A stretch of 44,449 bases of DNA from a virus. The first letter of the stretch is position 1. Each line of letters starts with the position of its first letter. The DNA is taken from positions 1 through 44,449 of IMG/VR virus record IMGVR_UViG_3300025289_000049; one strand, written 5' to 3'. Under the pieces are notes generated by a model. The model did not search any database and had not been told where the DNA came from. It was given only the letters and a program-made list of their open reading frames with translations. Shown here piece by piece: positions 5,274 to 24,703 of the stretch. Position numbers and translations under genes: made by a program.

Positions 5274-6821
5274 CTACGTGATCGTGGGTGCCTTGGCCTG
5301 GTTGAACGAGCCGAGAATCTGTCCCGTCTGCGGCGGCATGTAGTCCAGCGGGCGTGGGTAGTCCACCCCGAGGTCCGGGAACACTGGGCGGGAGACTGTG
5401 AACTCCGGAGCGTAGGCCCGGAGCCCAGAGAAGTCCACCGGCTCCGGCCTCGGCAGACGCGGAGGTTCGTATGCACTCTGTGCGCGATTCTGTCCGCCGA
5501 TCTGCTGGATGATGCTCAAGGGGCGCTCCCTCCGCAGGGTAGATGTCGGTCTGACCCTCTGCGGAGGTGCGGAAATTTCCGGTATCCCCCCCGATCTCCC
5601 GGATCGACTCGTCTGCTCGCCTGTCATGCCTGCAATGGAACGCGCTACGTAGCCCAAGGCACGCATCTTGGGGGTGATCTCGCCCGGACGGCCCTCCAAG
5701 CCTCCCGACGCGGCCAGGTCCTGAGCGTAGGCGTTCAGGCGGGGGTTGGCGGCGGCAGGATCGACCCCGTAAGACATGATGGCACGGTTCCCGGCCTGAA
5801 TGTTCAGGAGACGGTCCCTCTGCTCGGGTGTGGCCTCGCCAAGGGCGACAACAGTTTGCAGGTAGTTCTCTTCACCCTTCGTCTTCGCCAACATCTTGGC
5901 GTTATCCCGCTCCACCTTACGAGTGTACTCCTCAGCCTTCTTGGTCTCGTCCTGCTTCTGGATCAACTCGATGGAGTCCACCTGCTTGTTCAGGACATCG
6001 GCGACTTCCGGCCTGATCTCGGACGCGGCCTGCGCGATGACGCCACGGGCCGTAGGGATGTCCTTCATCCTGAGCGCCTTTTCGACCGCAGTTCTGGCTA
6101 CACCTTCACGCTTGTATGTGTCTTTGGTCTTCTGGTGTTCGATTCGGGCGGCATCTTTCTCTGCGGCGCGTTCGACGCTTCGACGTTTTTCGATCTTTCT
6201 CTGGAATGCTTCTCTCTGTTTCAGATTCGGGTTGTCCCTCACTTCTGTGGCGATGGCGGCTAGCGCCTCTTCGGTCTTGCCGTCGTCGATCATAGCTTCG
6301 ACCCTGCGCACATTCTCATCCGCCGCCTTTTCGGCGACGAGATACTCCTCGTCCGTCTGCACGTCATCCAAGTATCTGCCACGAATCGTGTCTGGCAAGG
6401 CGGACAGAATCGCCTTCATTCTCGCCAAGTCTCGTGCCGCCATGTCCAAGTCGCCGTCTTTCAGATTGTTGTAAAAGGCGGTCTGGCGGGTGGAGAAGTC
6501 TCCGATGCTCTCTTTGACGGAAGCCTCACGTTGCGTCTCTTCGGTCTTCTGCCTGTGGAACGTCTTCGTTCTCTTGAGCACCACGTCAGCGTCTTTTTCG
6601 AGGACATCTTGTATCCGGTTACGTGCCGCGTCACCGTCGGCAATGGACAAGGCGCTGGCAATCTCCTCGTCGATTCTCTGTTCCAGAAGATCGTATGCGT
6701 AGCCCGTCTCATTCTGATCGGTTGGATCGACGATATCGCGGCCAAACATCGCCCGCAATTCGCGGCGAAGTTTAGTGATGATCGCCAGTTCCGTCTGGCG
6801 CTGATAGTCGTCGTTTGGCAT
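5274..6821 (-). CDS. Coiled-coil internal virion (ejection-type) protein
   Basis: This encodes 515 residues with GGAGAAG before the ATG. Residues 10-330 are almost entirely charged helix, rich in Glu, Lys, Arg and Ala, with long coiled-coil stretches and no Cys. From about 340 the sequence turns Pro/Gly/Arg-rich and probably disordered, ending in Pro-rich repeats with PR/PE pairs. It starts 3 bases after the giant gene ends. A long helical protein beside a giant virion protein is the usual arrangement for podovirus ejection proteins that enter the cell with the DNA. That role is inference from layout. Confidence 0.5.
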   Translation of the reverse strand: MPNDDYQRQTELAIITKLRRELRAMFGRDIVDPTDQNETGYAYDLLEQRIDEEIASALSIADGDAARNRIQDVLEKDADVVLKRTKTFHRQKTEETQREASVKESIGDFSTRQTAFYNNLKDGDLDMAARDLARMKAILSALPDTIRGRYLDDVQTDEEYLVAEKAADENVRRVEAMIDDGKTEEALAAIATEVRDNPNLKQREAFQRKIEKRRSVERAAEKDAARIEHQKTKDTYKREGVARTAVEKALRMKDIPTARGVIAQAASEIRPEVADVLNKQVDSIELIQKQDETKKAEEYTRKVERDNAKMLAKTKGEENYLQTVVALGEATPEQRDRLLNIQAGNRAIMSYGVDPAAANPRLNAYAQDLAASGGLEGRPGEITPKMRALGYVARSIAGMTGEQTSRSGRSGGIPEISAPPQRVRPTSTLRRERPLSIIQQIGGQNRAQSAYEPPRLPRPEPVDFSGLRAYAPEFTVSRPVFPDLGVDYPRPLDYMPPQTGQILGSFNQAKAPTIT

Positions 6822-6824
6822 GTG

Positions 6825-9800
6825 TTACTTCTCCGATCCAGCCATTTCACGTTCGCGTGCCCGCTCCCTCATGCTCTTACGCTTCGGTTTCTCGCTCTTG
6901 TCCGCTTCTATTTCTGGCTGCGACTCATCGGAGCGCAACTCGACCTTCGGAGCGCCGTGTCCGAGCAAGACTGAATTGTAGTACATGAGCGCCTTCACTA
7001 GCCTGTCTCGCTGATCCTGTTGTAAGCCTGCCACGAACATAGATTGCTCGTCCTTCGTCAATCCGTGGAGTGGCTCCATGTTACCGAGAGCCGTCGTCAC
7101 GCCATTGTTGGTTCCTCCCAGAGCGATGTACTGTTGAAGCCAATGGTCTTGTCCATCATTATCACCGTATCGTAGTGCCATCTTGAAATTATACAACGCA
7201 TTCCCCCTATCCGACAACATGAACCCGTCTCGTCCTTTCCCGATCTTTTGAAGGAAACGGTTCTTTTCGTCCCAAATGTAGTGGTAGGCGGATTCCAACG
7301 GATCGGTGCGGTATACGAATAGGTCCGGGATGCGTTCAAGATAGGGTTCTCCAGGAAGTCCCGACACGGCTGCGTACTCTTTCCCCATGCCCAGGGTCTC
7401 CGCCAAGTGTCGTCCACGATCTCTGATCGTTGATGGATTGAAGGCATCGGGGAATAGGCGTCTACGAGTGAGAATCTCCGCAGGAACCTTTATCATCGGT
7501 GTGGCACCTTGCGCGATCTTGTTCAGTGGCGACTTCGCCATGTCTGTTGCGATCTCGGCGGTCGTCTTTCTGCCCTTGAACCAGTCATCCACCTGTCTAG
7601 GAGCAGCATCGAGCCCGAACCACTCCAGAAAATCCCCCAGAGAACCGAATCTGTTGAAGCTGATTACTTTCCCGTTGGAGTCACGACCTAAGATGATGTG
7701 CGGTCTCGCCCGAACATCAGGTGACAGGTCGTCCTCCTCATCCTTGAACATCGTGTTGTTCCAGATTTGCGCGATAGTCCATAGGCCAGTCGCCTTGATC
7801 GAGAATGCCCCGAGACGTATCGCCGTGGATGCTGTTTTTGCTCCCAAAGCTCTGCCGATTGTGGCCGTGGCCTTTCCATCCCTTGCGGCATTCCGGATCA
7901 TCTGCGTGTACCTACGGAAATTCGACTCCGCAAACGACCAAAAAGGCCACATGTGTTCACGTAGAGCCTTACCGTAGACGCCCACCTTGTCATAGGCACC
8001 AAGCAGGTCGTTCGATAGAGCAAACGCCCTGTCTCGAACATCCTTCAGCGCCATGATTTCTTCCGGGACGGATGCCCCAAAGTTCTTGGGTTCTCCTTTC
8101 TGGTTCGACTTCATCTGTTCCAGATAATCGAGATAGGCCGAGTACCGAAGGATGGATTCTCTCGCATCCGAGAAGGTTCGCGCCCCGTTCCAGTACCGCT
8201 TCCACAGGTTCCATCGCCCGGCAGGGGAGACACGTTCCGACAATCTGCTAAATCGGTCGAGCATCTTGATCTCGCCGAGCTCTTGAGCCTGAGCGGTAGA
8301 CCCCATGCCGCCGCGATTTGCCCATTCTGCGAACTCTCCGGAAGGGTCTTTGCGCCTCACGAACACGTCGTAGATATCTCCTAGCGCCTGTTTTGTCTTG
8401 AGGAAGGCACTCGGATTTCCGGCGAACGCCGCGTCCGCATCCCCCGTGAGGTTACGGAGAGTATACTTGACGACCCTTGTCGGAAGGTGCAGGACGAGTT
8501 CTTTCCACTGCACCAGCGACTTTCTGCTGAAAGAAGCCAGTGGATTGTCTGACGGTGGACGACCAAGATTATCGAGCGTCGCTGCCAGTTCATCCGGAAT
8601 GACGATCTCCTTGAACTTTCCACCCATCGCCAACACCTTGCGGATGTCGTTTTTTGTGATCTTTGCTTCAGTCAGTAATCCTTCCAGCAATTGCTCGGCC
8701 ATTTTGTGCGGAACAGAATCGGCCATGTAGAAGACATTCCCTTCTCTCGCCTGCCATGCTACGTATCCCTCCGGGATGGCATCATGCCAATCCAAGAGTT
8801 CTTGTTCCTTCGCGTTCGCCTTTACCTTGGCAGCGATGTTGTGCGGGCTATTCTCTACATGCGCAATCGCTTTAGCCACCTGAAGGTCGTAGCCCATCTG
8901 GGCCATGACCTGATGTTCTGCGGACAGATAATCTGTGAGGATGTCGAATTCGCTTCCCTTTCTAGCCTTCAGGAATCCCCTACCAACAGGAAGGCGAAGC
9001 CTCTGTCCGGTTCCCGAGATGGACTTTGCGTCCGCGTACTTCAGGACAATGTGTCTAAAGTAATCCTTGTTGGTGAGGATGTTCGTGACATCCTTCCCGG
9101 CGGCCTTCATGGCCTCCGTGTATTCATCAACTAGCTTGACCCAGGCGGCCTTTCGTAGGTCGATACTCGCCTTCACGATGGGACTGTTGTCAACAAAGGT
9201 GTCAATCCGTGCTTTCTCCTTTGCGAGACTTTCCGTCGTGAACCCAAAGGGAAGGCTTCGGCCCTTTCCAGATTCAGAGGCCAAGTCGTCAAGCAAAACC
9301 TTCCGCCAGAACAGATCATACCCATCCTCGTCCAGCGCTCTCGTAATCTTGTCCACGTCCCGAACTGCGTGCTCATCCGCGATGCCCTTGTACTTGAGGA
9401 GTTGTCTAAATTTGAACTTCTCCTCTGCGTACTTGGCACCTGACGGAAGGCGTTCAAAATCACGCGACATCTTATGCCACTGTTCACGTAACCATCCATG
9501 AACCCTTCGACCGAGACTTTCCTTTGGAAGCGTCTTTGCGCTTTGCACTCGTGTTTCAACGTCGGTGTCCTCAAAAGCATACGAAGAGGGCTTCCTTGGT
9601 GGAGGTTCTCCGGGAGCGGTACCCGGTGGCGTTGCCGGAGGCTTCTTCGGTGGAGGCGCTTTGTCGATCGCTGCGTTGAGATTCTCTCTCGCTTCCTGTT
9701 CTGAAGTCGGTGCCGGAGGCGCTTTCTCGGTCGGCGACGGCGCGTTTTGCGTTTCTTCGACTTCCGCCCGAACGCTGATCTTTGGCTTCGCCTTCCACCC

Positions 9801-12800
9801 AGGTGGCGTTCCCATGCGAAGAAGGGGTTTCTCTTCCGGGGGCACCCACGACTCAATGATCTCCGTACCCTCTGGGACTTCCGTTCCGCCGACTTCGCCT
9901 TCTGCTTTCAGGGGAAGTCCATCCCTAGTCCGAGCCTCGTCGATCTTGTCTCTGGAGTATCGAACGGCCGCATCACCGTCACGCTCTGCGGTGCGGAGGA
10001 TGATGTCCTCCATCGCGCTTCTAGCCTTCTCTCCAATGCCAGATTCTATTCTGCCTACGAAGCGGTCGATGTCGGCTTCGTACGGGGCACGTTCCGGCTC
10101 TGGCGCAGCAGCCACGGGCGGCTCGGTCGGAGGCTTGCGGGGCGGAGGAGTTGCCGCCACGGCACGCGGCGGGGTTGTAACGATGGCACCTAGAGAGGGT
10201 TCTGTGGTAGGTATTGCTGACTCAATCTCTGGCCTTCCTCTTGCAATAGGCGCTCTGAGCAATTGCCTGTTCGCCACGTGCATGACATTGAGCATCATTG
10301 TCGGCAATCCATGACCGCCGTAATCCTCTGGTACCTCTCCCCAAAACTCCTGAATTCCTGAATCTGCGGCTTCTTTCCATGATTGTATGTGCTCAGATGC
10401 AACTCCCTTGATGCTTTGCGAGACATCTCCCGGCTTGAATCCGGTTTGATCGAGGATGATTCTGTGGATTCTTCTCCTGCCTGTCTCAGGCATCTTCGGA
10501 TATGTGTAATTCCAGAAGTCATTCGATACCTGTTCCGGAGTGAGACCGGACTCAACTAACTCATCCCACGCATTGAGTTGCGACTCTCGAGATGCCATGC
10601 GTTCGAGAAACACATCCGCTGTAGCAGGACGTTCTGCGGCCTCCGGACGCGCTGGCGGGGCGGGTGGAGGCTCGGAGGGCACTGAAGCTGTCGCCCTCAT
10701 TCGTTCCGCCCGAAATTGCCCCGCCCTGATGTATGCTCTAGCCGCTTCGCCATGCGCTTCTGCGTCACCAAAGCGTTGCTCATTGTACACGCCATCAATG
10801 AGCCATCCTCCGTTCCTAATCCGTTCCGGAGGAATGCCCATGTCCCGAATCATCAGAATGTGAGTATAGTTATATCGATCACCGTAAAATATCGAACCGT
10901 CATCAGTGAGAACCGCTGGAAACTGCCCGGTCTCCGGAAGCCGTTTCATTTCAGGAATGGGATTTCCAATTCCCGGAAATCGCTCCTTTCCGTATCTCTC
11001 AAAGTCCACATCACTCAATCCGCTTGTGTCGTGAAGTGGTGGCGGCTCTGTGGCCGGGACCGTCGCGATTCTCCGCTTGGCCTCGGCCTTCGCGGCGTCC
11101 AGCACCTGACGCACTAACGGAATCTTTGAAGCGTACTCCCCGTGGAGTTTTTCCAGTTCCTCGGCGGTCATTCCCTTCACCGCCTGCTTTCCGATGATGT
11201 CGATGCGGGACTTCATGAGGGGGCCAACAGGTTTCGCCGCCTTTGGCTTCACGGTTCTCGGCTCACGAATCGGCTTTCCGGGAGGTGCAACGACGGGCAC
11301 TATCGGCTGCGCCGCTTCCTTTTCCATCTTCATCCGTTCCGCCCTCGTGAACAGCCGGTCGAACACTTGCCGCATGGCCGGGCTGATCTCGATGTCGATT
11401 GGACTTCCGGTGATCCTCCGGTAGATTTCCTTCATCCACTCGCGCACCTTTGAAAAGATCGGCTCAAGGTTCGCTGTGGGGGCCTTGCCGTCACGTAGAT
11501 ATCGCTCCACTCCTCTGGCGAATCGTTCCTCTGCCGTGCGGGTCCATCTTCCGTCCTTCGCTCCCGCCCAATTCTCAGCCGTGGCGATGTCCTCGTCCGT
11601 GATCCCGCGCCGCTGTTCTGGAGTGAGGTTGCGGTCGAAGAGTTGACGCCGAGCGACGTGTCCGAGAATCTCGTGAACAGCGGTCGAGAAATCGGGATTC
11701 TTGAGCGCGTGGACCAGAGTCTTCCCATCGGCCAGGAATTCCACTGCGCCCTTCTGGCCATGCTGAAAGAGAATGTCGGCGCTCTGTGACGTTTCCCGAA
11801 TCGTCTTTGCTCTGTTGCCTTCTCCCTTCGGATAGGTGACAACCTCAAGCCCGCGAGTCTTCAAGGCGTCGATCACGTCTTGTGGCGTGTTCTCCGGAAC
11901 GACAGCGGAGCGGAATTCGTTCAGGCCAACGGCACGTCGAATTTTCGCCTCGAAGTATTCGGTCGGAAGAGTCCTAAGTTTGTCGAGAAAGATGCGCATC
12001 TCTTGGAATGGTTGCCCGGTCGGGTACATCTCGCGCAGGTGCTTCCAGTCGCCTTCGGCCATCGTCTTCAGGTCGTCGCTCATCGCTTCAGATCGCCTGT
12101 ACTCGTCCACTTTGATCACTCTCGCATCGTGCATCCTTCCGGACAAGGCAAGGAACTCGCCATTCACGTCGTCTTTGATTTTGTCCATCGCTTCTTTGGA
12201 GATGATGTCTCCACGGGCCGCTTGGATTTCCCTGATGGAACGGAATTGCTTCGCTGCCAGAGCGCGAATGTTGCCAACCCCATAATCGAATCCTTCGGCG
12301 CTGCGGAGTCCCTTCTTGAGAATCTGTACGACCGTATCCAGATTGTGCGGCAAGTAACGCTTGTTCCCGATGTCTGTGAAGCCGGTGAATATTTTCTCTT
12401 TTTCGACAAGTGCCAGTTTAGTCACGGACTTGTCAACCCACTCCTCGAACTCCGCCTTCAGACTCGGATCGTTTGCAATCGCCTCCCTCACGGCGTAACG
12501 GTCGCCAGACTGGTCCTTTCCCGCAAGCGTCATCTTGTCCGCAACGCCTTTCTCGATAAGGAAGGCGAACTTCGCGTCTTCGCTTTGTTTCATTCCAACG
12601 CGAACACCTTCCCCTTCGAGATTACCGAGTAGAGTGTGTTGGCTGAACGACTTCGTTTTCTCGGAGTCGATCCTTGCGTAGATGTCGCCGATGAACCTCC
12701 CGAGTTTCACTTCCGAAGGCGCATCAAGGAAGTGTTTCACGGCGGGATAGCGTGGAGAGTAGGCGTCGGCATTCAACACTTTCGTAGTACGGGAAGGCGT

Positions 12801-15800
12801 GACGAGTTCCTTCGATCCTAAAAGCGTGATGTCGCCGTAACCCTCGAAGTTGCCTGTATCCACGTTGATGATCGCAACGCTCGGAACAGGAAGCCCACCC
12901 ATCTTGGCCGCGTGACGCACATTGTTGGCGGTGAGGTTGTGCGCGGCAACGAGATTCGCGCCACCTTGCTTCAGCGCCCCCTTCCCCGGACTTCCACCCC
13001 TCGTCATCACCACCTTACTCACGTCAAGTCCGATCGCCTTCACGAGTACGTCAGTCAACGCCACCTGCTCGTCGGTGGCACCCATCGTCTTGAGGGATTC
13101 CTTGCTGTACGGAGTCTCTTGAGCGGGGCTCGGCGGTGTGCGTACTGACTGGGCTGCTGGTTCCTCTCTCGCAACCTGAGACGCTTCTGCTGTCGGCGGG
13201 ACTGTGACGGGCTTGGAAGGATTTGCCGCCAGTCTCGTCTTCTCCTGTTCGTAGTAGGCGGCCCCGGCGCTGCCCGGTGTCACGTCACCCTTGTTGGGGG
13301 GCCTGTCTGCCGCAATCGCCCTGTCGATGCGGGACTTCATGAGGGGGCCAACAGGTTTCGCCACCTTCGGCGTCGCGGCTATCGACTTCTTCCAACGCGG
13401 TGTCGATCCAAGGAATTCGCCGATGTCTCTCTCATCTCGAATCAGACCGCGTTTTTTTGCCGTCGAAGCAACCTCGTCCAATGTCAAGCCAGTGAAACCG
13501 CGGTATCGTGCAGGAATCGCAAGATACTCCTCGAATCCTGAAAGATCGCCGATGTAGCGTTCAAAGCCCTTGATAATTTGTGCAACATCGTCGCTTTTTC
13601 TCATGCGGCTCGTCAACATGCCGAGAACGCGGGCACCCTTTCCCGCGTTGATTGTCCGTTGAAACGCGGCCGTGAAGATGTTCAACGATGGTCGGACGCC
13701 ATTCGATGTAACATCCGACAGCCGTTCCGAACGCACACGAGTAGCCTCGGCTTCTGATTCCGCGCCAACTCGTTCCACCTCTGCCTTCTGGTATCGATCT
13801 CCTAGCGTCTTGTTCTCGGTCGCGCTGAGAGAACCCTTTTCCATCTCAACCTGATCGTCAACACTCACAACCCTGTTGATGGCATTCTTGATCCGAAGCG
13901 TGTCTTCCGTGGGTCCGGATTCGACGCGAACCTCTTTGCCCCTATGAGTGAACGTATCTCCTATCGCCATATTCCCGGCGGACACAGTTTCCGTTTCAGG
14001 TTCCCCCTCTGAAAGCGTAGTCTGCGCGGTCTTGATCGCTTCGACCTGCTTTTCTTCGCCGGTCTTTCCAAACAGATCGGCTGTTCCTTCTGGCAGTTTG
14101 GCTTCACGCGCCTTAGCCTGTGCCTCTCCTGTAAGCCTGGCCTCTTCCGCAGTAGGCGGCTTCATCGGGAATGTGAGTTGCTTTCCCTTCGGTGTCACAA
14201 TCGGACGCTCTTGGCCGGGCGGGGCGGCGGGCTTTGGAGCGGCCCTTGCTGGAACGATTCCACCAACTCGTCGTACCGTGTCAGCATACTCACGCGTTGC
14301 CTGTTCATACGTCGGATAGGTGTTTACATGAACTGCCTCGCCAGTATCGGAATCTCTCACAATGACAACTGCTCGTTTGTCCTTCGCTGACGCTGCCCCA
14401 TACAATTCGTAGCGCACGTTGTCGATAGTCTGCGAATCGACAAGATTCGATTCAATTCCGGCCACACGAATCTCATCGCCAACCTTGAGGTCCCACGGCT
14501 CTTTCGCCTTCGGAACCACAGGAGGCGCTTCGGTGAGAGGAGAAACGGTGGGCGACGGAGGACGGAATTCGCCCCGCGTTGCGAGTCCCCTTGCCGTCCG
14601 CTCTGCCATGCGCCTATCGATGGATCGTTCACCAGAGACGGTTTCGCCGTCACTGATCCGCGTAACCATGTAGCCGGACTCTCCGCTCACTGGCGTAGCA
14701 GGATGAACGAGGTAGTCGCCGTAGGCGGTTCCAGACAGGCTAATCGTTTGGCCGCCAGACATGGCCTTCTTGATCTCAGCCTTGCGACCTTCGATGAGCG
14801 CAGCCTCCGGAGACTTCTCGGATGGAGGTGGAGATGGAACGGTGGGCGGTCGAGATGCTTGACCGACGATCCTATAGCGCCGGCGCGCGTCCTCCTGAAA
14901 CATTTCTCCTGGATTAGCCCGTGCCACATCTTGCAGATATGCCTCACGCTGCGCCTCCGTACCTTCCACAGAACGGTTCCCGCTAACTCCCTTCAGAACA
15001 CCAATTCGATTCGCCCGCGCAAGTACCTCTTGTGCGTGCCCAAGGCTCGACACCCCGGACTCTATGGGTTCTCCCGTTCTACCCTCCACAACTCTCCACA
15101 TTCTCGGGCCGGTTTTTTCGATGTAGTTTGCGGTAGGTGCGGCGGGTGGTACACCTGCTGACGGAGGTACGGGCTCGCGCGGAATCCGCGCTGCGCCCAT
15201 CTCGAATCGTCCTTCGCGTGACGGCGCGTTTCCCATCGACTTGGCAAGCGCGGGTTCGATCTTGCCGATGGTAGATTGCGCCGCCTTGAAGTAGCCTTCA
15301 GCGCGTCGAGCGACGTTCTGTGGAATGCTCGATTCCGCGCTCCACTTTGCAATGTGCGGTCCGCCCATCATCAGGGCGAGTTCAAACGTCCCGCCATGCT
15401 TCTGAGCCGTTTCTTCATCGACTCCAAGAGAACGAAGAACCGATTCCCCAAGCGGCACGCCAGATTCGTGAAGTGCCGAAATCGCCACCATCGGAGCCTG
15501 CATGGCGATTTCACCCTTGAAAACTTGACCTGCCGCCTGCTTGAGTCCAGCCACTTCCGCTGAACCGATCGCGGCGGCGCCAGGCACCATGCTCTGCGGA
15601 ATCGCTTCTCTGGCTGCCAAGGCTTTCGCTTGTGCTCCAGCAACTCTTCCGGCGCTTCTGGCCGCAAGAGTAGTAGGAAGAATTTGTCCGCCTTCGGCCA
15701 AGGCAATCGACGCTTCCTGTCCTCGGCCTTCGGGAAGGAACGGAGCGACCATGCCGGGAGCCATGCCAATCCCAAACGGAACGCCCTCAGAAAGTGCCCT

Positions 15801-16616
15801 TGACGTGAGACCAAGTCCGGGCATCACGGGCATGACCGATGCCGCGATTGCAGCCGTCTTGAGCGCCTCCTTCTCCCAATCAGCCAGATGGTACTCGGAT
15901 TCTCTGGCCTTGAGATGTTCGCGGTGCAGTTTCAGCTCGTTGTCGAAAGCCGCCATCTCCGGCGAAGGGGCGGATTCCCGATCGAAGTACGTGCGCTTGT
16001 CGTTCGCACCCATATCCTCAAGTGCGGCAATTCTGTCTGCGATCTGATAGTCATGTTGCGTTCGCTTCGAGACAGGGATGCCGCCTTCGTACTCTGGAGC
16101 ATATTCCTGCTCTTTGAGTCCAAGAACTTCGCTCACCGCACCAACAGTCGGAATCTGAAACCCGGTCGGTTTGGCCCCAAGTTCCCGTTCCCGACGGTAC
16201 TCTCGATACTGTGTCTGATTCTGAGACTGAATCGCCACTTCCTTGACCGGATCGTAGGGAGCCCCCACCCTTGCCGACTGGTAGGCTTGTTCTGGAATCT
16301 GCAATTCAGGCAGCGGGGCCTGTGGCTGCAACGTCATCCCACCTTGCAGAAACTCCGGGGACGGCATGTAGCCTTCTGGAATGTCGATGGGGGGCTCAGG
16401 ATGCCCGTAGAAGCCCGGTGGCGGCTCAGGTAGTGCGGGAGGACCAAACGGGATGCTCGGTGGCCTGTACGCCCTTTCCTGCCCGTAGGGATCAAGACCG
16501 AAGAGCGTTCCAAGAGGCGGAGGAGGAAGAGGCGAAGGCAACGCCCCGAGCCCCGTAGTCGGTCTGATGGGACCCACCGGGCGTCGAAGGAACGCATACG
16601 GGTTGAAGGGCGGCAT
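6825..16616 (-). CDS. Giant polyvalent virion protein with zincin-like module
   Basis: This encodes 3263 residues, over a fifth of the window. From the N-terminus: a Pro-rich segment (1-190); an Ala/Gly-rich hydrophobic region (about 240-345) that could insert in a membrane; small beta-rich modules joined by Pro-rich linkers (about 495-1000); a domain around 1180-1560 with LVAAHNLTANNVRHA and GYGDITLLGSKEL; a metalloprotease-like segment with HEILGH (1648-1653) and the downstream pattern WAGAKDGRWTR, FARGVERYLRDGKAP, WMKEIYRRITG; more modules (1860-2290); and a helical C-terminus (about 2370-3200) with REHMWPFWSF. The second domain and the protease segment resemble parts of the 'large polyvalent proteins' of phages and conjugative elements. 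Neighbours suggest it is packaged and ejected. No polymerase motifs were seen. Confidence 0.75.
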   Translation of the reverse strand: MPPFNPYAFLRRPVGPIRPTTGLGALPSPLPPPPLGTLFGLDPYGQERAYRPPSIPFGPPALPEPPPGFYGHPEPPIDIPEGYMPSPEFLQGGMTLQPQAPLPELQIPEQAYQSARVGAPYDPVKEVAIQSQNQTQYREYRRERELGAKPTGFQIPTVGAVSEVLGLKEQEYAPEYEGGIPVSKRTQHDYQIADRIAALEDMGANDKRTYFDRESAPSPEMAAFDNELKLHREHLKARESEYHLADWEKEALKTAAIAASVMPVMPGLGLTSRALSEGVPFGIGMAPGMVAPFLPEGRGQEASIALAEGGQILPTTLAARSAGRVAGAQAKALAAREAIPQSMVPGAAAIGSAEVAGLKQAAGQVFKGEIAMQAPMVAISALHESGVPLGESVLRSLGVDEETAQKHGGTFELALMMGGPHIAKWSAESSIPQNVARRAEGYFKAAQSTIGKIEPALAKSMGNAPSREGRFEMGAARIPREPVPPSAGVPPAAPTANYIEKTGPRMWRVVEGRTGEPIESGVSSLGHAQEVLARANRIGVLKGVSGNRSVEGTEAQREAYLQDVARANPGEMFQEDARRRYRIVGQASRPPTVPSPPPSEKSPEAALIEGRKAEIKKAMSGGQTISLSGTAYGDYLVHPATPVSGESGYMVTRISDGETVSGERSIDRRMAERTARGLATRGEFRPPSPTVSPLTEAPPVVPKAKEPWDLKVGDEIRVAGIESNLVDSQTIDNVRYELYGAASAKDKRAVVIVRDSDTGEAVHVNTYPTYEQATREYADTVRRVGGIVPARAAPKPAAPPGQERPIVTPKGKQLTFPMKPPTAEEARLTGEAQAKAREAKLPEGTADLFGKTGEEKQVEAIKTAQTTLSEGEPETETVSAGNMAIGDTFTHRGKEVRVESGPTEDTLRIKNAINRVVSVDDQVEMEKGSLSATENKTLGDRYQKAEVERVGAESEAEATRVRSERLSDVTSNGVRPSLNIFTAAFQRTINAGKGARVLGMLTSRMRKSDDVAQIIKGFERYIGDLSGFEEYLAIPARYRGFTGLTLDEVASTAKKRGLIRDERDIGEFLGSTPRWKKSIAATPKVAKPVGPLMKSRIDRAIAADRPPNKGDVTPGSAGAAYYEQEKTRLAANPSKPVTVPPTAEASQVAREEPAAQSVRTPPSPAQETPYSKESLKTMGATDEQVALTDVLVKAIGLDVSKVVMTRGGSPGKGALKQGGANLVAAHNLTANNVRHAAKMGGLPVPSVAIINVDTGNFEGYGDITLLGSKELVTPSRTTKVLNADAYSPRYPAVKHFLDAPSEVKLGRFIGDIYARIDSEKTKSFSQHTLLGNLEGEGVRVGMKQSEDAKFAFLIEKGVADKMTLAGKDQSGDRYAVREAIANDPSLKAEFEEWVDKSVTKLALVEKEKIFTGFTDIGNKRYLPHNLDTVVQILKKGLRSAEGFDYGVGNIRALAAKQFRSIREIQAARGDIISKEAMDKIKDDVNGEFLALSGRMHDARVIKVDEYRRSEAMSDDLKTMAEGDWKHLREMYPTGQPFQEMRIFLDKLRTLPTEYFEAKIRRAVGLNEFRSAVVPENTPQDVIDALKTRGLEVVTYPKGEGNRAKTIRETSQSADILFQHGQKGAVEFLADGKTLVHALKNPDFSTAVHEILGHVARRQLFDRNLTPEQRRGITDEDIATAENWAGAKDGRWTRTAEERFARGVERYLRDGKAPTANLEPIFSKVREWMKEIYRRITGSPIDIEISPAMRQVFDRLFTRAERMKMEKEAAQPIVPVVAPPGKPIREPRTVKPKAAKPVGPLMKSRIDIIGKQAVKGMTAEELEKLHGEYASKIPLVRQVLDAAKAEAKRRIATVPATEPPPLHDTSGLSDVDFERYGKERFPGIGNPIPEMKRLPETGQFPAVLTDDGSIFYGDRYNYTHILMIRDMGIPPERIRNGGWLIDGVYNEQRFGDAEAHGEAARAYIRAGQFRAERMRATASVPSEPPPAPPARPEAAERPATADVFLERMASRESQLNAWDELVESGLTPEQVSNDFWNYTYPKMPETGRRRIHRIILDQTGFKPGDVSQSIKGVASEHIQSWKEAADSGIQEFWGEVPEDYGGHGLPTMMLNVMHVANRQLLRAPIARGRPEIESAIPTTEPSLGAIVTTPPRAVAATPPPRKPPTEPPVAAAPEPERAPYEADIDRFVGRIESGIGEKARSAMEDIILRTAERDGDAAVRYSRDKIDEARTRDGLPLKAEGEVGGTEVPEGTEIIESWVPPEEKPLLRMGTPPGWKAKPKISVRAEVEETQNAPSPTEKAPPAPTSEQEARENLNAAIDKAPPPKKPPATPPGTAPGEPPPRKPSSYAFEDTDVETRVQSAKTLPKESLGRRVHGWLREQWHKMSRDFERLPSGAKYAEEKFKFRQLLKYKGIADEHAVRDVDKITRALDEDGYDLFWRKVLLDDLASESGKGRSLPFGFTTESLAKEKARIDTFVDNSPIVKASIDLRKAAWVKLVDEYTEAMKAAGKDVTNILTNKDYFRHIVLKYADAKSISGTGQRLRLPVGRGFLKARKGSEFDILTDYLSAEHQVMAQMGYDLQVAKAIAHVENSPHNIAAKVKANAKEQELLDWHDAIPEGYVAWQAREGNVFYMADSVPHKMAEQLLEGLLTEAKITKNDIRKVLAMGGKFKEIVIPDELAATLDNLGRPPSDNPLASFSRKSLVQWKELVLHLPTRVVKYTLRNLTGDADAAFAGNPSAFLKTKQALGDIYDVFVRRKDPSGEFAEWANRGGMGSTAQAQELGEIKMLDRFSRLSERVSPAGRWNLWKRYWNGARTFSDARESILRYSAYLDYLEQMKSNQKGEPKNFGASVPEEIMALKDVRDRAFALSNDLLGAYDKVGVYGKALREHMWPFWSFAESNFRRYTQMIRNAARDGKATATIGRALGAKTASTAIRLGAFSIKATGLWTIAQIWNNTMFKDEEDDLSPDVRARPHIILGRDSNGKVISFNRFGSLGDFLEWFGLDAAPRQVDDWFKGRKTTAEIATDMAKSPLNKIAQGATPMIKVPAEILTRRRLFPDAFNPSTIRDRGRHLAETLGMGKEYAAVSGLPGEPYLERIPDLFVYRTDPLESAYHYIWDEKNRFLQKIGKGRDGFMLSDRGNALYNFKMALRYGDNDGQDHWLQQYIALGGTNNGVTTALGNMEPLHGLTKDEQSMFVAGLQQDQRDRLVKALMYYNSVLLGHGAPKVELRSDESQPEIEADKSEKPKRKSMRERAREREMAGSEK

Positions 16617-16627
16617 TCGCGATCATC

Positions 16628-17644
16628 CTAGTACCTGTACCCGGAGGCGGTCAAGCGAGCGTTCTTCCCCGGTGTCCCGAACGTGTTGATCGAAGTCCCC
16701 TGTCCGCCAGCAATCCCCGTGTAAGCCGGAGGCGTGTACTGAGGCGTTGGCGGCTTGTACTGTGGTAGCAACGCCCCGCCTGAATGCGAGATGTTCGACA
16801 CAGGCTGTTCTCTGGCCCTGGCTGCTTCGTAAGCCGGTCGTGCCGCCGCCAATTTCGACTGATTCGCGGCGTTGAAGGCATTGACGTACTTCTGAGAAGT
16901 GGAAGCAGATGCAGTTAGTGCGCCACCTCCAGTCCATCCGGATACTTGCCTTGCTCTGGCTTCGTCCATCCCTTGAGCCCTCAGAAACTGAAAACCCTGC
17001 TCCTGCCTGGACTGCCCAGGCCGTCCAACTTGCCATTCAGGCATTCCTTCCCCCTCGCGTCTTGCCCCGGCCGTCATGCCTCCCATCCCGGACTGCTGGG
17101 TCGGAGCGACTCCACCGAAGCCGCCACCCAGTTGCATGGGGGCAATCTCTGGCTGTGCCATCGGGTTCCTGACGGCGGGCGGCTGGATGTTCTTTGCCGG
17201 ATCGCTCGACACTGGACCGCCGCCCACGCCCGGATTCGCTCCCGAATCCATGTAGAACGGCGTCATGTTGTATGGCGTGTTCTGAGCGCCCACCTGGAAC
17301 CCACCGCCGGAGGGTTGGGACTGCGGAGTCAGCGTCGATTGCGGCTGAAGTCCGGCACTTGGAGGTACGGCGGGACCAATCTGTAACCGCTCTCCACCTG
17401 TCCACATGGCGTTCTGAGGATTCAGATTCGCTCGTTGGACCTGCGGCCCCTGTCCGGTCTGACTCCATGTCTGGTAGGCTGCGTAAGCCTGCTCCGGACT
17501 GAGACCAGACGTAATGAGCGACTGCATCGCGTTGTACGGGCTATACGCGGAGAGTCTCGCGTAGTCGATCTGTGGAGCGCCGTAGCCGGGCGGTGGCATT
17601 GTCGGTGTCGGGTACGCCGTGTTGAACTGCATGCCGGTGGGCAT
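16628..17644 (-). CDS. Pro/Gly/Gln-rich virion-associated protein
   Basis: This encodes 338 residues with AGGAG before the ATG. Composition is extreme: Pro, Gly, Gln, Tyr and Ala dominate, with few charges until a helical patch (about 225-270, EARARQVSGW then NAANQSKLAAARPAYEAARA). It is probably largely disordered. It sits between a Gln/Ala-rich coiled-coil protein and the giant protein, with gaps of about 10 bases, so the three are probably made and packaged together. A flexible internal virion protein is the best guess. No enzyme motif or family was recognised. Confidence 0.45.
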   Translation of the reverse strand: MPTGMQFNTAYPTPTMPPPGYGAPQIDYARLSAYSPYNAMQSLITSGLSPEQAYAAYQTWSQTGQGPQVQRANLNPQNAMWTGGERLQIGPAVPPSAGLQPQSTLTPQSQPSGGGFQVGAQNTPYNMTPFYMDSGANPGVGGGPVSSDPAKNIQPPAVRNPMAQPEIAPMQLGGGFGGVAPTQQSGMGGMTAGARREGEGMPEWQVGRPGQSRQEQGFQFLRAQGMDEARARQVSGWTGGGALTASASTSQKYVNAFNAANQSKLAAARPAYEAARAREQPVSNISHSGGALLPQYKPPTPQYTPPAYTGIAGGQGTSINTFGTPGKNARLTASGYRY

Positions 17645-17653
17645 CGGAGACTC

Positions 17654-18847
17654 CTATCTTGCACGCGCAAAGGTCGAGAGGTCTTGTCCAGATGGCCCAC
17701 TGGCCGAGCCTGACATGAAGTTCGGAATCCCGCCCGAAGGTTGCCCGCTTCCACTCACAATACCCGTGGCAAGGTCTCGGTACGTGTTCGTCTGCGGATT
17801 GTGGCCGTAGTAGCGCGGATTTCCGTATCGGTCTGACTGGATCGTGAGTTCCTCACCGGACCGAAGATAGGGAGCCGCAGTGCTCTGGACTCTCGCTGAA
17901 ACCTGTTCTGCGCTCTCGCCAGGTCTAGGCTGCGATGCCGCTCGTATGGCCTGGTTCGGATCAGCAAGCGTCCTCGGCTGTTGACCGATGGTGACTCCAG
18001 GAATGTTCGGATTCTGAAATTCCTGAGGCCGATGCAAGAGACTCACCGTCCCCTGTTGCGCTGCGGCCGGTGCCGCCGCAGTCGTCGTCCCGCCACGATG
18101 TGCCTCGAACTGTGCCCGCCGCGCCGCCTCCTGCGCCGCCCAATTCCCCTGAGCGATCTGGTTCTCGATCTGCCATTGCTGAAAATCTCTCGCCTGCTGG
18201 GCCTCCTGCGAGGCATAGCGGTTCTGCATCTCAGCGATGTCCCGCGCCGCTTGCGTCTGTTCCGCCGCTTGCTGGGCGGCTGCCTGTCTCTGCGCCTCCG
18301 CCTGTCTGAACGATGCGATGTAGGCCAAGTCTTCCGCGCTGCCACGCGCTTCGAGGTCGCCCAGCGTCTGCATCTCGGCTTCCTGCTGCCGCCGATTCTC
18401 CTCCATCATCGGTCCCGATCCGTACAGGCCGCGTCGGTTCATCGTCTCGCCGATGTCTTGCCTCTGCGTGAGACCGAGACGCCGAAGCCGCTCCGCCGCC
18501 GTTTCGCGTCCGAGTTGCGACGGACGCAGAAGGGCCAAGAGGTCGGCGTCCGATGTCCCGCTACCTCCGGAAGAACCACCGCCAGAAACGCCACCAGGCG
18601 TCACGAAAGACAGACCAGTACCACCACGGTACTGCGACGTGGCCCCGGATTGTCTCGGCAACGGAATTGCGGAAGGCATTGGCGTCGGCGTGTAGAACGA
18701 AAGCCCAACATTCTGCTGCGCTCTGCCTTGCATGGCGTAGGCGGGATCGGCACCGTATCCGGAGTATCTCGCAAGAGGATCGTTCGCCGGAGTCCCTGCA
18801 CGAGCGCCGTAGAGGCCCGCAGTACCGTATGGGTTGATCGTCACCAT
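17654..18847 (-). CDS. Gln/Ala-rich coiled-coil virion protein
   Basis: This encodes 397 residues from the ATG at 18847 with AGGTGG upstream; the longer frame to 18874 overlaps the previous gene. Residues ~115-255 form a long helix rich in Gln, Ala, Glu and Arg (RQAEAQRQAAAQQAAEQTQA). The flanks are Gly/Ser/Pro-rich and probably disordered. This composition resembles internal virion proteins of podoviruses, which are ejected and assemble across the envelope. It is the first of four large non-globular genes (17654 down to 5274) between the nozzle-like gene and the fibre genes. Confidence 0.5.
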   Translation of the reverse strand: MVTINPYGTAGLYGARAGTPANDPLARYSGYGADPAYAMQGRAQQNVGLSFYTPTPMPSAIPLPRQSGATSQYRGGTGLSFVTPGGVSGGGSSGGSGTSDADLLALLRPSQLGRETAAERLRRLGLTQRQDIGETMNRRGLYGSGPMMEENRRQQEAEMQTLGDLEARGSAEDLAYIASFRQAEAQRQAAAQQAAEQTQAARDIAEMQNRYASQEAQQARDFQQWQIENQIAQGNWAAQEAARRAQFEAHRGGTTTAAAPAAAQQGTVSLLHRPQEFQNPNIPGVTIGQQPRTLADPNQAIRAASQPRPGESAEQVSARVQSTAAPYLRSGEELTIQSDRYGNPRYYGHNPQTNTYRDLATGIVSGSGQPSGGIPNFMSGSASGPSGQDLSTFARAR

Positions 18848-18854
18848 TGTCCAC

Positions 18855-20441
18855 CTACTGTTGACTGGCCGCAAGATGACCCAGCAACTTCACGGAGAGC
18901 ACCGTCATGGCCGTCTTGGCTCCGGTCCTCTTCAACGCCCACGACACCGTGTTGAAGTGCGGAAACGACTGGGGCACCGTCGCTACGAACAACACAACGG
19001 TCCTCGAATACGGATGCCTTCTGGCGGAAATATGGGAGCCCGCAACGGAGGTCCCGGTTCTCAGGTCCATGTCGGTAGCGGAGACTGTCAGGACCGTGGG
19101 CGTCAAGGTGAGATCGGGATACAGACTGACCTCCACTTTCTCCGATCCCGCGTTGTCAACCTCAGCAAGAATCTCGACGCTCCCCATGCGTTTCCGGATC
19201 GTAGGATGTCCGAAGTCTTCGTGTCTGTGTCGCCACTCGGTGTCGATTCCTAACGGCCCGTCGGTCTGGCTATTGTCCACCCTCCACAGCCGCCCGGTGA
19301 TGGCATCCCCGGCCAGGATGTACAGGCCGTTCTCCACGGTGAGCAGCGACGCGAAGTTCCACGAGTCTACCCGAGTAGGATACCACCCCAGCGACTGGGA
19401 TCCCCACAGATCATGCAGCATCCCCCTGTACTTGTTGGTCCCTGTCGCACTGCGGTACACGATGTAGAGCGCCTGATCGTGGTACACGTATTGTGTCGTG
19501 TTCGCCAAGGCAGCGTCGAAGTCGCCCCGGTAGTAGTTCCAGATCGGGGCCGAGATGTTATCGGGTTCGCTCGACCCGTCCCATCGCATGAAACCCCTGT
19601 TCGAGAGGAAGTACATCCAAGCGCCATCGGTGACAAGCGATCTCGGGGAACTGCATCCCACGGTGCTCGTGACCTTGATGAACTCGTAGTCGGGCGGTCC
19701 ACTTCCCGCAAGCGCGTAGAAGGACAAGCCGGTCGGAACGTACAGTCTGTCCCGGTACTCAAGCAGCCCCTGAACCTGCCAGTTCGGGTTGCTGTCCACG
19801 GCGTTCGGGATGATGTTCGTGACGGGCCAGACCAGCGGCGCGAACAGGTCGCTGTACTGGATCATGAACGGCGCGGCATCCTGCCCGGCGGTGAAGACCC
19901 TTCCCCGGTGCAGTTCGATGTATCTGGCAAGAGGAGCGCCCGGGATCGCCGCCCACGCAGCCCCATCCCACGAGAACATCCCGGCGGCGCCACCCGGGAC
20001 GTACACGACGAAAATGCCGTACCCATTCGTGCTGATGGCTCGCATCTCTGTCGCACCGACAATCGTCGCCGTGAGCGTCCATGCCAACGGAGCAGGCCAA
20101 GGAGTCCTGTATATCTCGCCGGTACTTGGCACAAGCGCGAAAATCCATTGTCCGACAACAGCAACCGTCGTGAACACATTGCACAGATTTGTCAAAGAGC
20201 CTGGGCCGATGCCCAGCGGATTCTCAAGGAGGAGCGTGTACCCCGGCCTAGTTCTCAGAGCGCCGTACAGGTTCGTCTCAGAGACGGTCCCGCGACTCCA
20301 ACAGTTCTCGCAGAACCATGCCGCGTTGATCGGAAGCGCGTTTTTTCTGGACGATGCGTCAAGGCCACCTGAGAAGTCCGTGTAGAGTCTCTCAACAGGG
20401 CCGTCGTAGTCCTTCTGCGTAGCTGGATGCTCGCCCGCCAT
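18855..20441 (-). CDS. Tail-nozzle-like beta-propeller protein
   Basis: This encodes 528 residues. The start carries a motif seen in many podovirus tail proteins (DFSGGLDASSRKNALP, then CENC and RTRPGYTLL). The rest is short beta strands with repeated aromatic and Gly turns (MAGMFSWDGAAW-like, WMYFLSNRGFMRWDG, YHDQALYIVYRS), as expected of a propeller. This matches tail nozzle/tubular-B-type proteins that close the short tail below the connector. The connector candidate lies just upstream (20448-21221) and ejection-type genes just downstream, the usual podovirus order. Confident as a structural tail protein, less so of its exact position. Confidence 0.6.
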   Translation of the reverse strand: MAGEHPATQKDYDGPVERLYTDFSGGLDASSRKNALPINAAWFCENCWSRGTVSETNLYGALRTRPGYTLLLENPLGIGPGSLTNLCNVFTTVAVVGQWIFALVPSTGEIYRTPWPAPLAWTLTATIVGATEMRAISTNGYGIFVVYVPGGAAGMFSWDGAAWAAIPGAPLARYIELHRGRVFTAGQDAAPFMIQYSDLFAPLVWPVTNIIPNAVDSNPNWQVQGLLEYRDRLYVPTGLSFYALAGSGPPDYEFIKVTSTVGCSSPRSLVTDGAWMYFLSNRGFMRWDGSSEPDNISAPIWNYYRGDFDAALANTTQYVYHDQALYIVYRSATGTNKYRGMLHDLWGSQSLGWYPTRVDSWNFASLLTVENGLYILAGDAITGRLWRVDNSQTDGPLGIDTEWRHRHEDFGHPTIRKRMGSVEILAEVDNAGSEKVEVSLYPDLTLTPTVLTVSATDMDLRTGTSVAGSHISARRHPYSRTVVLFVATVPQSFPHFNTVSWALKRTGAKTAMTVLSVKLLGHLAASQQ

Positions 20442-23071: not shown

Positions 23072-24703
23072 CTAGTCAAGGACCATTCCAATGATCGACC
23101 CGCCGATGATGCTGCCTCCAGCCCCGGCAGTCGTGAACGACGATTCCGTGGACATGAATCGTCTGCCACAAGGATCGAAACACTCCATCCGGTAGTAGTA
23201 GAGCGTGTTCGCCTTGAGGTTTGCGATGACGTGAGAATGACTCGTCACCGGCAACGTGAAGTCTGTAGGCGCGTTCGGATTCAGGAAGCCGTCGTACTGC
23301 CAGGGCGAATAAACCGCAGCGTTCAGCGGCGTGATCCCGCTGGACGTAGACAGCAGAATGCGCGACTTGGCCCTGATACCCGTCGTAGCCGTGATCGTCG
23401 CGCCCTCATTCGTGACCGTGCCCGCCGTGGGTCCAACCGTGAACGAAATCGGCTTGTTCGGAGTTGCTCTTGCGTTCGTCCTGTTGACCGTCAAGCCTCT
23501 GTACTGAACCGGAATGCTCGTACTGGTCGTATTTCCGCTGTCTGTGTCAGTGTGGACGAAGAAGTTGGCGGAGGCCCAATCCGACATGTATGCGTCCAGG
23601 GCGGGGAAGTCTCCGACATACGCGCCCGACGCCCCCCCGATGTAGTCGTTGTCCGAGGTGCCCCCGTTCAATGCACCCGTCGTCGCGTTCGCGTCGGACT
23701 GGCAGATCACGTCATTACCGGACGATGCGCACGTTCGGATGCCATTCAAGTTGATTGACCTGACTCCCATCGCTCCGCCAACCACGACAGAGTTCTGTAC
23801 CGCCATCGCTCCAGCGCCGTTATTAATGACGATGCTTCCGCCATTCCCAACGGAATGATTCACATACGCCTCGTCAAAGGTCGTCGTAGCCCCCCCAGCA
23901 GGCGATGTTGAAAGTGCGGAAACACCAACAGGAGATTCGCCGCCAACCATAGCCCGCGTGACGGAACTACCGTTTATGGACGGTCCTGAAATTCCAATTC
24001 CTCCTGGATCAATGGCGATCACGTTCGTAGCCACCATCGCCACGTTACCCGAGAAGGTAATCGGGTCGTTGCACTTTGCTGCCTTCAAGTCCGCGATGGT
24101 GTTCGTCCCACCAGTCGGAGCCACGGATATCGGTATCTCGCAACCATACGCAAAAATGCGCTGGAAGGAGTTGGTTCCACCCGTAGGGGAGAAGTCTACT
24201 CCGGTGGCGGGACACCCCCATGCCTGAAGATCGGTGTACGTATTTGTCCCTCCAGCTGGCGACAGAACAAATCCGCGAGTTGCATGACCGGAGAAGACGC
24301 GACAATTGGTAACACTTGCGTTCCCGGCTCCTGTATGTCGTTCGAAAAGGCCGACAAAATGGAAGTCACAGTAGTCGTATGTGCCGACTCCGGTAGACTG
24401 AGTGTCGAACCGTGGGGTCGTGTTTGATTGCATCGTCCACGTAGTCGCGGACCCGCTTGGCGCGATCTCGATTCGATTAGAAGCAGTAGCGCCCGTTGTG
24501 GTGATGCGTCCGGACGTGGCCGATGTAAAAGTGAACGCACCATCGAACACGAGTGGATTCGGAACTCCGACGGCCGGGGCCGTGATGGTGATTGTAGCCC
24601 CGGCATCAACAGTTGCATTCCCGGAAAAGTGGTAGGTATCGGCGGCGACAGACAAATCCCAATTCTGTGTCGACTGCGCACCCGTGATTGCGAAGTCCGC
24701 CAT
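23072..24703 (-). CDS. Beta-helix appendage protein with C-terminal FN3-like domain
   Basis: This encodes 543 residues. Residues ~150-225 contain rungs of about 23-25 residues that each restart with Pro-x-Gly-Gly-Thr-Asn (three clear copies: PAGGTNTYTDL, PTGGTNSFQRI, PTGGTNTIADL). Strands rich in Asn, Thr, Gly and Val continue to about 390, as in right-handed beta-helix phage adhesins. The last ~90 residues resemble a fibronectin type III fold (HVIANLKANTLYYYRMECFD, STESSFTT). Beta-helix tailspikes bind or cut surface glycans. No catalytic site could be picked out. It could be a head fibre rather than a tail spike, given its place near the capsid gene. Confidence 0.55.
   Translation of the reverse strand: MADFAITGAQSTQNWDLSVAADTYHFSGNATVDAGATITITAPAVGVPNPLVFDGAFTFTSATSGRITTTGATASNRIEIAPSGSATTWTMQSNTTPRFDTQSTGVGTYDYCDFHFVGLFERHTGAGNASVTNCRVFSGHATRGFVLSPAGGTNTYTDLQAWGCPATGVDFSPTGGTNSFQRIFAYGCEIPISVAPTGGTNTIADLKAAKCNDPITFSGNVAMVATNVIAIDPGGIGISGPSINGSSVTRAMVGGESPVGVSALSTSPAGGATTTFDEAYVNHSVGNGGSIVINNGAGAMAVQNSVVVGGAMGVRSINLNGIRTCASSGNDVICQSDANATTGALNGGTSDNDYIGGASGAYVGDFPALDAYMSDWASANFFVHTDTDSGNTTSTSIPVQYRGLTVNRTNARATPNKPISFTVGPTAGTVTNEGATITATTGIRAKSRILLSTSSGITPLNAAVYSPWQYDGFLNPNAPTDFTLPVTSHSHVIANLKANTLYYYRMECFDPCGRRFMSTESSFTTAGAGGSIIGGSIIGMVLD

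Follow-up and report, generated by a model that had tools for sequence, protein, structure and literature searches.

Polyvalent proteins, as surveyed by Iyer et al. (2017; PMC5512222), carry disparate enzyme-like domains in one chain encoded beside virion genes, PBECR and zincin domains among them, and the same survey already recorded a set of zincins with an HEXXXH motif. The virion RNA polymerase (vRNAP) of phage N4, gp50, is laid out as an effector, a zincin and a helical C-terminus without known homologues, and its loosely linked domains form a beads-on-a-string chain that passes through a ~35 Å channel (PMC12633501); without its C-terminal region it is not encapsidated (PMC5512222). The absence of cysteine from N4-type virion RNA polymerases has been reported earlier, and was tied to passage through the tail and periplasm (PMC3715699, PMC2784036, PMC3915230, PMC5795418). 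Mass spectrometry has detected the DarB-like giant gp69 of the Bcep22-type podophage JC1 in virions (PMC9144972). It is largely unknown which proteins of a phage accompany its DNA into the cell and what roles they play there, and tests of this are slow.

The window analyzed here is the whole of virus record IMGVR_UViG_3300025289_000049 (44,449 bases), a 44.4-kb record of podovirus type. Its minus strand holds, at 6825..16616, a single unbroken frame of 3263 codons with an ATG start, amounting to 22% of the record and lying exactly where an initial annotation had placed a giant gene. The encoded 3263-aa protein, free of cysteine, joins at least two domains of disparate activity, a PBECR5 domain and a zincin, and is encoded among late virion genes. 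It is thus a polyvalent protein, of a known kind, with two new features: a C-terminal domain that resembles a carrier and a cassette bounded by repeats. The sequence evidence makes it likely that the giant is a large ejection protein of a short-tailed phage, polyvalent in build, which would be stored in the head and threaded into the host with exchangeable cargo.

Gene neighborhood and relation to described ejection proteins

Gene order on the strand of the giant runs from a DnaB helicase through terminase, portal and major head protein to the tail genes and then to the giant. The tail protein that forms the upstream border of the cysteine-free block is probably the nozzle (18855..20441, four cysteines); it is followed by a 406-aa Gln/Ala-rich protein (17654..18874), a 338-aa Pro/Gln-rich protein (16628..17644), the giant, and a 515-aa helical protein with a Pro-rich tail (5274..6821), all on the minus strand. 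The three smaller proteins of this block are cysteine-free and probable ejection proteins, the 406-aa and 338-aa ones as judged by position and composition only; none of the three matches any ejection family. The initial annotation had set the giant between ejection-type and fiber genes: the ejection-gene position stands, but the downstream neighbor is the helical 515-aa protein and not a fiber. A search of the record for tRNA genes found none, and the annotated phage collection holds no near-identical phage. Elsewhere in the window, 25123-27384 encodes a 753-aa protein, probably a fiber or decoration protein, whose N-terminus is signal-like and whose internal repeats (53-nt family D1) have diverged, and 23072-24703 encodes a β-rich protein of 543 aa whose nine cysteines are unusual beside cysteine-poor virion genes and which weakly matches the purple-acid-phosphatase N-terminal domain (E=0.002).

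Six annotated phages encode the same zincin within giants of 2039-2854 aa, whose genes directly follow those for internal virion proteins and for a transglycosylase or endolysin, and lie upstream of spike or fiber genes. The giant of the window shares with the BPP-1 Bbp10 group (phrog_9880; Ab9, AF, CP2, Carin1, UFJF_PfDIW6) a homologous zincin, the type of gene neighborhood and the lack of cysteine, and with the Ab9 and Carin1 giants PBECR5 as well; however, between the ~1000-residue C-terminus of Bbp10/phrog_9880 giants and that of the window no relation is detectable, which places our giant outside their class. With T7 gp16 it would have in common the rank of largest ejection protein, encoded last of the ejection genes, and it likewise has no cysteine, but it has neither a transglycosylase nor any other similarity to gp16 (Pfam, PHROGs) and does not belong to the gp16 class. 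Size, rank as third ejection gene, the order of effector, zincin and large C-terminus, and the lack of cysteine are shared with N4 gp50, whereas the C-terminus is unrelated by profile comparison and the zincin is only weakly alignable. Neither Pfam nor PHROGs matches a T7-like RNA polymerase domain in the giant; since it has no polymerase domain and a C-terminus unrelated in sequence, it lies outside the N4 vRNAP family. By analogy, it looks like the N4 vRNAP design with the polymerase exchanged for an RNase-like effector. JC1 gp69 is likewise a cysteine-free, giant polyvalent protein of a short-tailed phage, but its cargo is DarB-like antirestriction where our giant has an RNase-like domain and a zincin. 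The features common to polyvalent proteins at large are the disparate enzyme-like domains in one chain beside virion genes and the pairing of PBECR with a zincin, including its HEXXXH form; what sets the giant apart is a C-terminus that matches no curated LPD or Pfam model, and no LPD domain was found in it.

Relatives in Nostoc, Microcystis and Caulobacter phages, and bbp10 of BPP-1 (PMC9239159), bear annotations as lysin, lysis protein or crystallin beta/gamma, which would make the giant a cell-wall enzyme. We give this reading hardly any weight: Pfam and PHROGs find no lysozyme, transglycosylase, amidase or crystallin domain in the giant, and in the reference phages the transglycosylase is a separate, preceding gene. 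No transglycosylase was recognized anywhere in the window.

The RNase-like and zincin domains and the repeats around them

Eight Pro-rich linkers (residues 1-104, 465-508, 678-715, 788-825, 1767-1803, 1968-2009, 2133-2188 and 2298-2356) divide the giant into parts, in agreement with the chain of separate modules that the initial annotation had described. The first is the N-terminal tail (16305..16616; this and the other coordinates given for the giant are on the minus strand) and the last (9549..9725) lies at the border of the constant C-terminus. The hydrophobic segment of that annotation is present but weak: in the Ala/Gly-rich stretch at residues 252-470 (15207..15863) the best 19-residue window has a mean hydropathy of 1.36 (residues 252-270), and none anywhere in the giant exceeds 1.5. 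Also upheld is the statement that several modules resemble nothing recognizable. The modules lying between Pro-rich linkers at residues 508-1085 (13362..15095) and 1803-2298 (9723..11210) have no match; residues 1-1200 and 1790-2335 match nothing at E≤0.01 in 50,697 phage records, and Pfam offers nothing better than E=0.55 for residues 1-1179 and 1790-2400, so that ~1,700 residues are without a match to anything known. A search for an inter-domain processing motif, [FY]SR, was abandoned, the motif being neither clearly enriched nor located at linkers, and Foldseek of a multi-domain model against the PDB returned meaningless matches only.

The PBECR5 domain occupies residues 1221-1299 (12720..12956) and is matched by Pfam at E=3.4e-17, with 63.6 bits against a curated cut-off of 25. 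The His in its N-terminal helix (His1226) and the later Thr (Thr1264) are invariant across seven diverse sequences, which fits the active-site pattern known from PBECR domains (PMC5512222); the region is poorly modelled and its fold is unconfirmed by prediction. The motifs LVAAHNLT and GYGDITLL, initially read as a protease-like core, form the core of this BECR-fold RNase-like domain and are therefore nuclease-like, not protease. A helical unit follows at residues 1369-1617 (11766..12512; phrog_22978, E=2e-22). In Acinetobacter phage Ab9, a GNAT acetyltransferase-like domain directly precedes PBECR5 in a protein annotated as hypothetical (L002:11262-19781).

The zincin-like segment of the initial annotation proved to be a zincin (residues 1612-1759, 11340..11783; phrog_9880) whose motif, HEILGH at 1648-1653, is of the form HExxxH, one residue longer than HExxH; the downstream Glu1697 falls in a conserved column. 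The PBECR and zincin modules also uphold the link to polyvalent proteins made by the initial annotation. The zincin aligns with those of BPP-1 Bbp10 and five other giants, all six of which have HExGH where the window has HEILGH; in a tree with weak support, HExxxH may have arisen several times, though perhaps only once. An AlphaFold model from 49 sequences gives the zincin a pLDDT of ~90-96; in it, strands lead into the motif helix, and the helix bearing Glu1697 comes next. Foldseek against a viral library returns annotated polyvalent proteins, with one match at 3.2 Å over 156 columns. A compact domain is thus predicted, and not the one long coiled coil that the initial annotation had named as counting against its proposal. 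A likeness to dipeptidyl peptidase III, with its HExxGH type of motif, was considered and dropped because the nearest relatives of the zincin are HExxH phage domains.

PBECR5, the helical unit and the zincin are enclosed by two copies of a direct repeat that lie in the same reading frame. The first (5') copy, at 13322..13362, encodes AKPVGPLMKSRID; the second, at 11198..11238, lies 2124 bp (708 codons) from it, both on the minus strand. The copies are identical over 41 bp and 89% identical over 66 bp (11198-11263 against 13322-13387), beyond which they are unrelated; this is the sole near-perfect long repeat in the record. The pair fits capture or loss of a cassette by recombination. The record is, however, a metagenome contig, and the repeat peptide is absent from all other viral contigs searched, as might be expected if the repeats were an artefact of assembly and not the border of a biological cassette. 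We judge that improbable, as the copies are in frame, stand at module borders and have flanks that diverge (89% over 66 bp, then no relation).

The C-terminal domain and its cargo

Residues 2336-3219 of the giant (6960..9611), about 885 residues, are common to 24 otherwise different proteins at 26-47% identity. Scans for the middle and the C-terminus with single-protein patterns and a search with a two-sequence C-terminal alignment found no relatives; short conserved-tail alignments were the queries that recovered them. When the conserved final 137 residues from five sequences served as the seed, the search yielded 23 loci in viruses plus one in a Nitrospira metagenome-assembled genome (MAG), and the family of 24 consists of the loci from this search, L010, and the loci of the earlier short-tail alignments, one of which overlaps L010. 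Apart from L010, family members share nothing with the giant by BLAST beyond the C-terminal domain. The family has no match in Pfam (15 members scanned), the PDB or the 50,697 phage records, and no homology with the BPP-1-type or N4 C-termini, the weak local GFxKxR-like matches being insignificant. The initial annotation had the C-terminal motifs shared with known large polyvalent proteins; the C-terminus instead constitutes a family of its own. Its sole match in a cellular genome (L116, NSJL01000006.1), near a contig end of the Nitrospira MAG, may indicate either a Nitrospira host or a virus binned in error.

The N-terminal cargo joined to this domain differs among its bearers: a ddrB-type ParB and an inorganic pyrophosphatase in L098, a Strawberry-notch helicase in L090 and, joined to MuF_C, in L116, an SNF2-type helicase in L111, and only ~400 residues in L097. 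The gene order in L097 runs phrog_376 tail protein, phrog_418 internal virion protein, 530-aa protein, family member, the last three being cysteine-free; here the family member stands immediately after a gp14-like ejection gene and a gene of tunnel size. Runs of two or three consecutive cysteine-free genes ending in the family member also occur in L098, L099 and L103.

The position of the gene, and a constant C-terminus whose cargo can be dispensed with (L097 has but ~400 residues more), would also suit a purely mechanical ejection protein that builds the DNA channel at its inner-membrane end, like T7 gp16, its enzyme-like modules serving for processing or spacing only. This seems to us unlikely, for the active-site residues of PBECR5 and the zincin are conserved over wide divergence and the cargo slot of relatives holds other complete enzyme domains.

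As an enzyme-carrying ejection protein, the giant would fill the place of T7 gp16 or the N4 virion RNA polymerase. We infer from the constancy of the domain and the position of the gene that residues 2336-3219 most likely dock the giant in the capsid core or the ejection machinery; this docking is a guess, because the C-terminal model is poor (mean pLDDT 54) and too weak for structure search. At infection the chain, packaged in the head, would be threaded through the tail and the channel of its neighbors as small beads on Pro-rich linkers. Once in the host, going by homology, PBECR5 would probably cut RNA of the host or the phage at an early stage, and the zincin with its HExxxH motif would probably trim the chain or a host protein; disarming the host is one possible role among others. 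This cargo can be exchanged: relatives have ParB-like and pyrophosphatase domains, helicases or almost nothing in its place, and the cassette here lies between in-frame repeats.

A broader proposal, of which we are slightly more doubtful than confident, makes residues 2336-3219 a carrier domain, not described before, which would place a giant protein in the capsid core and guide its exit through the tail; onto this carrier phages would fuse interchangeable anti-host enzymes by recombination at short in-frame repeats. It would be a polymorphic-toxin-like delivery scaffold of short-tailed phages, recognizable genome-wide through cysteine-free gene blocks. Through the constant domain a possible protein-loading module becomes accessible to study, and the swapped cargo of its family supplies a list of candidate early anti-host enzymes.

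Cysteine in ejected and other phage proteins

The giant has 0 cysteines in 3263 residues. Its base composition by codon position predicts 34, and the other two frames of the same strand contain 76 and 108 cysteine codons. The four adjacent genes at 5274-18874 together encode 4522 residues without cysteine; 25 would be expected at the rate of the other virion genes of the window (28 in 5039 residues, 0.56%; Fisher 1.6e-8). In the six reference phages the giants have one cysteine in 14,475 residues and the transglycosylases none in 4,345. Cysteine makes up 0.72% of portal, capsid and tail proteins in these phages, 0.75% of spikes and 0.86% of the small gp14-like proteins. Known ejected proteins without cysteine are T7 gp15 and gp16, N4 gp50, gp51 and gp52, and P22 gp7, gp16 and gp20. 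T7 gp14 has one, and since gp14-like proteins carry cysteine, the rule is one for large ejection proteins. The DarB-like protein of podophage JC1 (4515 aa) has none, the DarB of myophage P1 nine. Among 101 relatives of the giant, 81 have no cysteine at all, and the total is 56 in 238,819 residues; 454 other ORFs of the same loci have 1.02%. Avoidance of cysteine would spare the chain disulfides during passage through the tail and the oxidizing periplasm.

These figures bear on whether the giant is packaged at all. Nuclease-like and protease-like domains are known in toxins too, and a late protein retained by the cell that makes it, for instance as a toxin or to time lysis, might combine them. 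We regard this as very improbable: the giant lacks cysteine as known ejected proteins do, unlike cytoplasmic ORFs, its gene is located within the virion cluster, and the cysteine-free DarB-like podophage giant is found in virions (PMC9144972).

The cysteine signature is the part of this analysis most worth pursuing, because it turns injection into a question that one can put to sequences: any podovirus genome could be scanned for candidate injected proteins by the absence of cysteine over hundreds to thousands of residues. In the literature covered, which is partial, we found no paper stating such an absence for large ejection proteins generally or for non-polymerase giants. The large ejection proteins of T7, N4 and P22 bear the mark, as do the podophage DarB-like giant and most of the 101 relatives; P1 DarB, which exits via a contractile tail, does not. 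The exceptions in podophage contexts are L043, with 12 cysteines, and L081, with four; those of L043 (L043:5075-14227), the clearest exception, are scattered. Two zincin giants with clustered, zinc-finger-like cysteines (L013:2-7438 and L029:6557-14623) are encoded next to the capsid gene, on its upstream side and away from the usual position, and perhaps take another delivery route.
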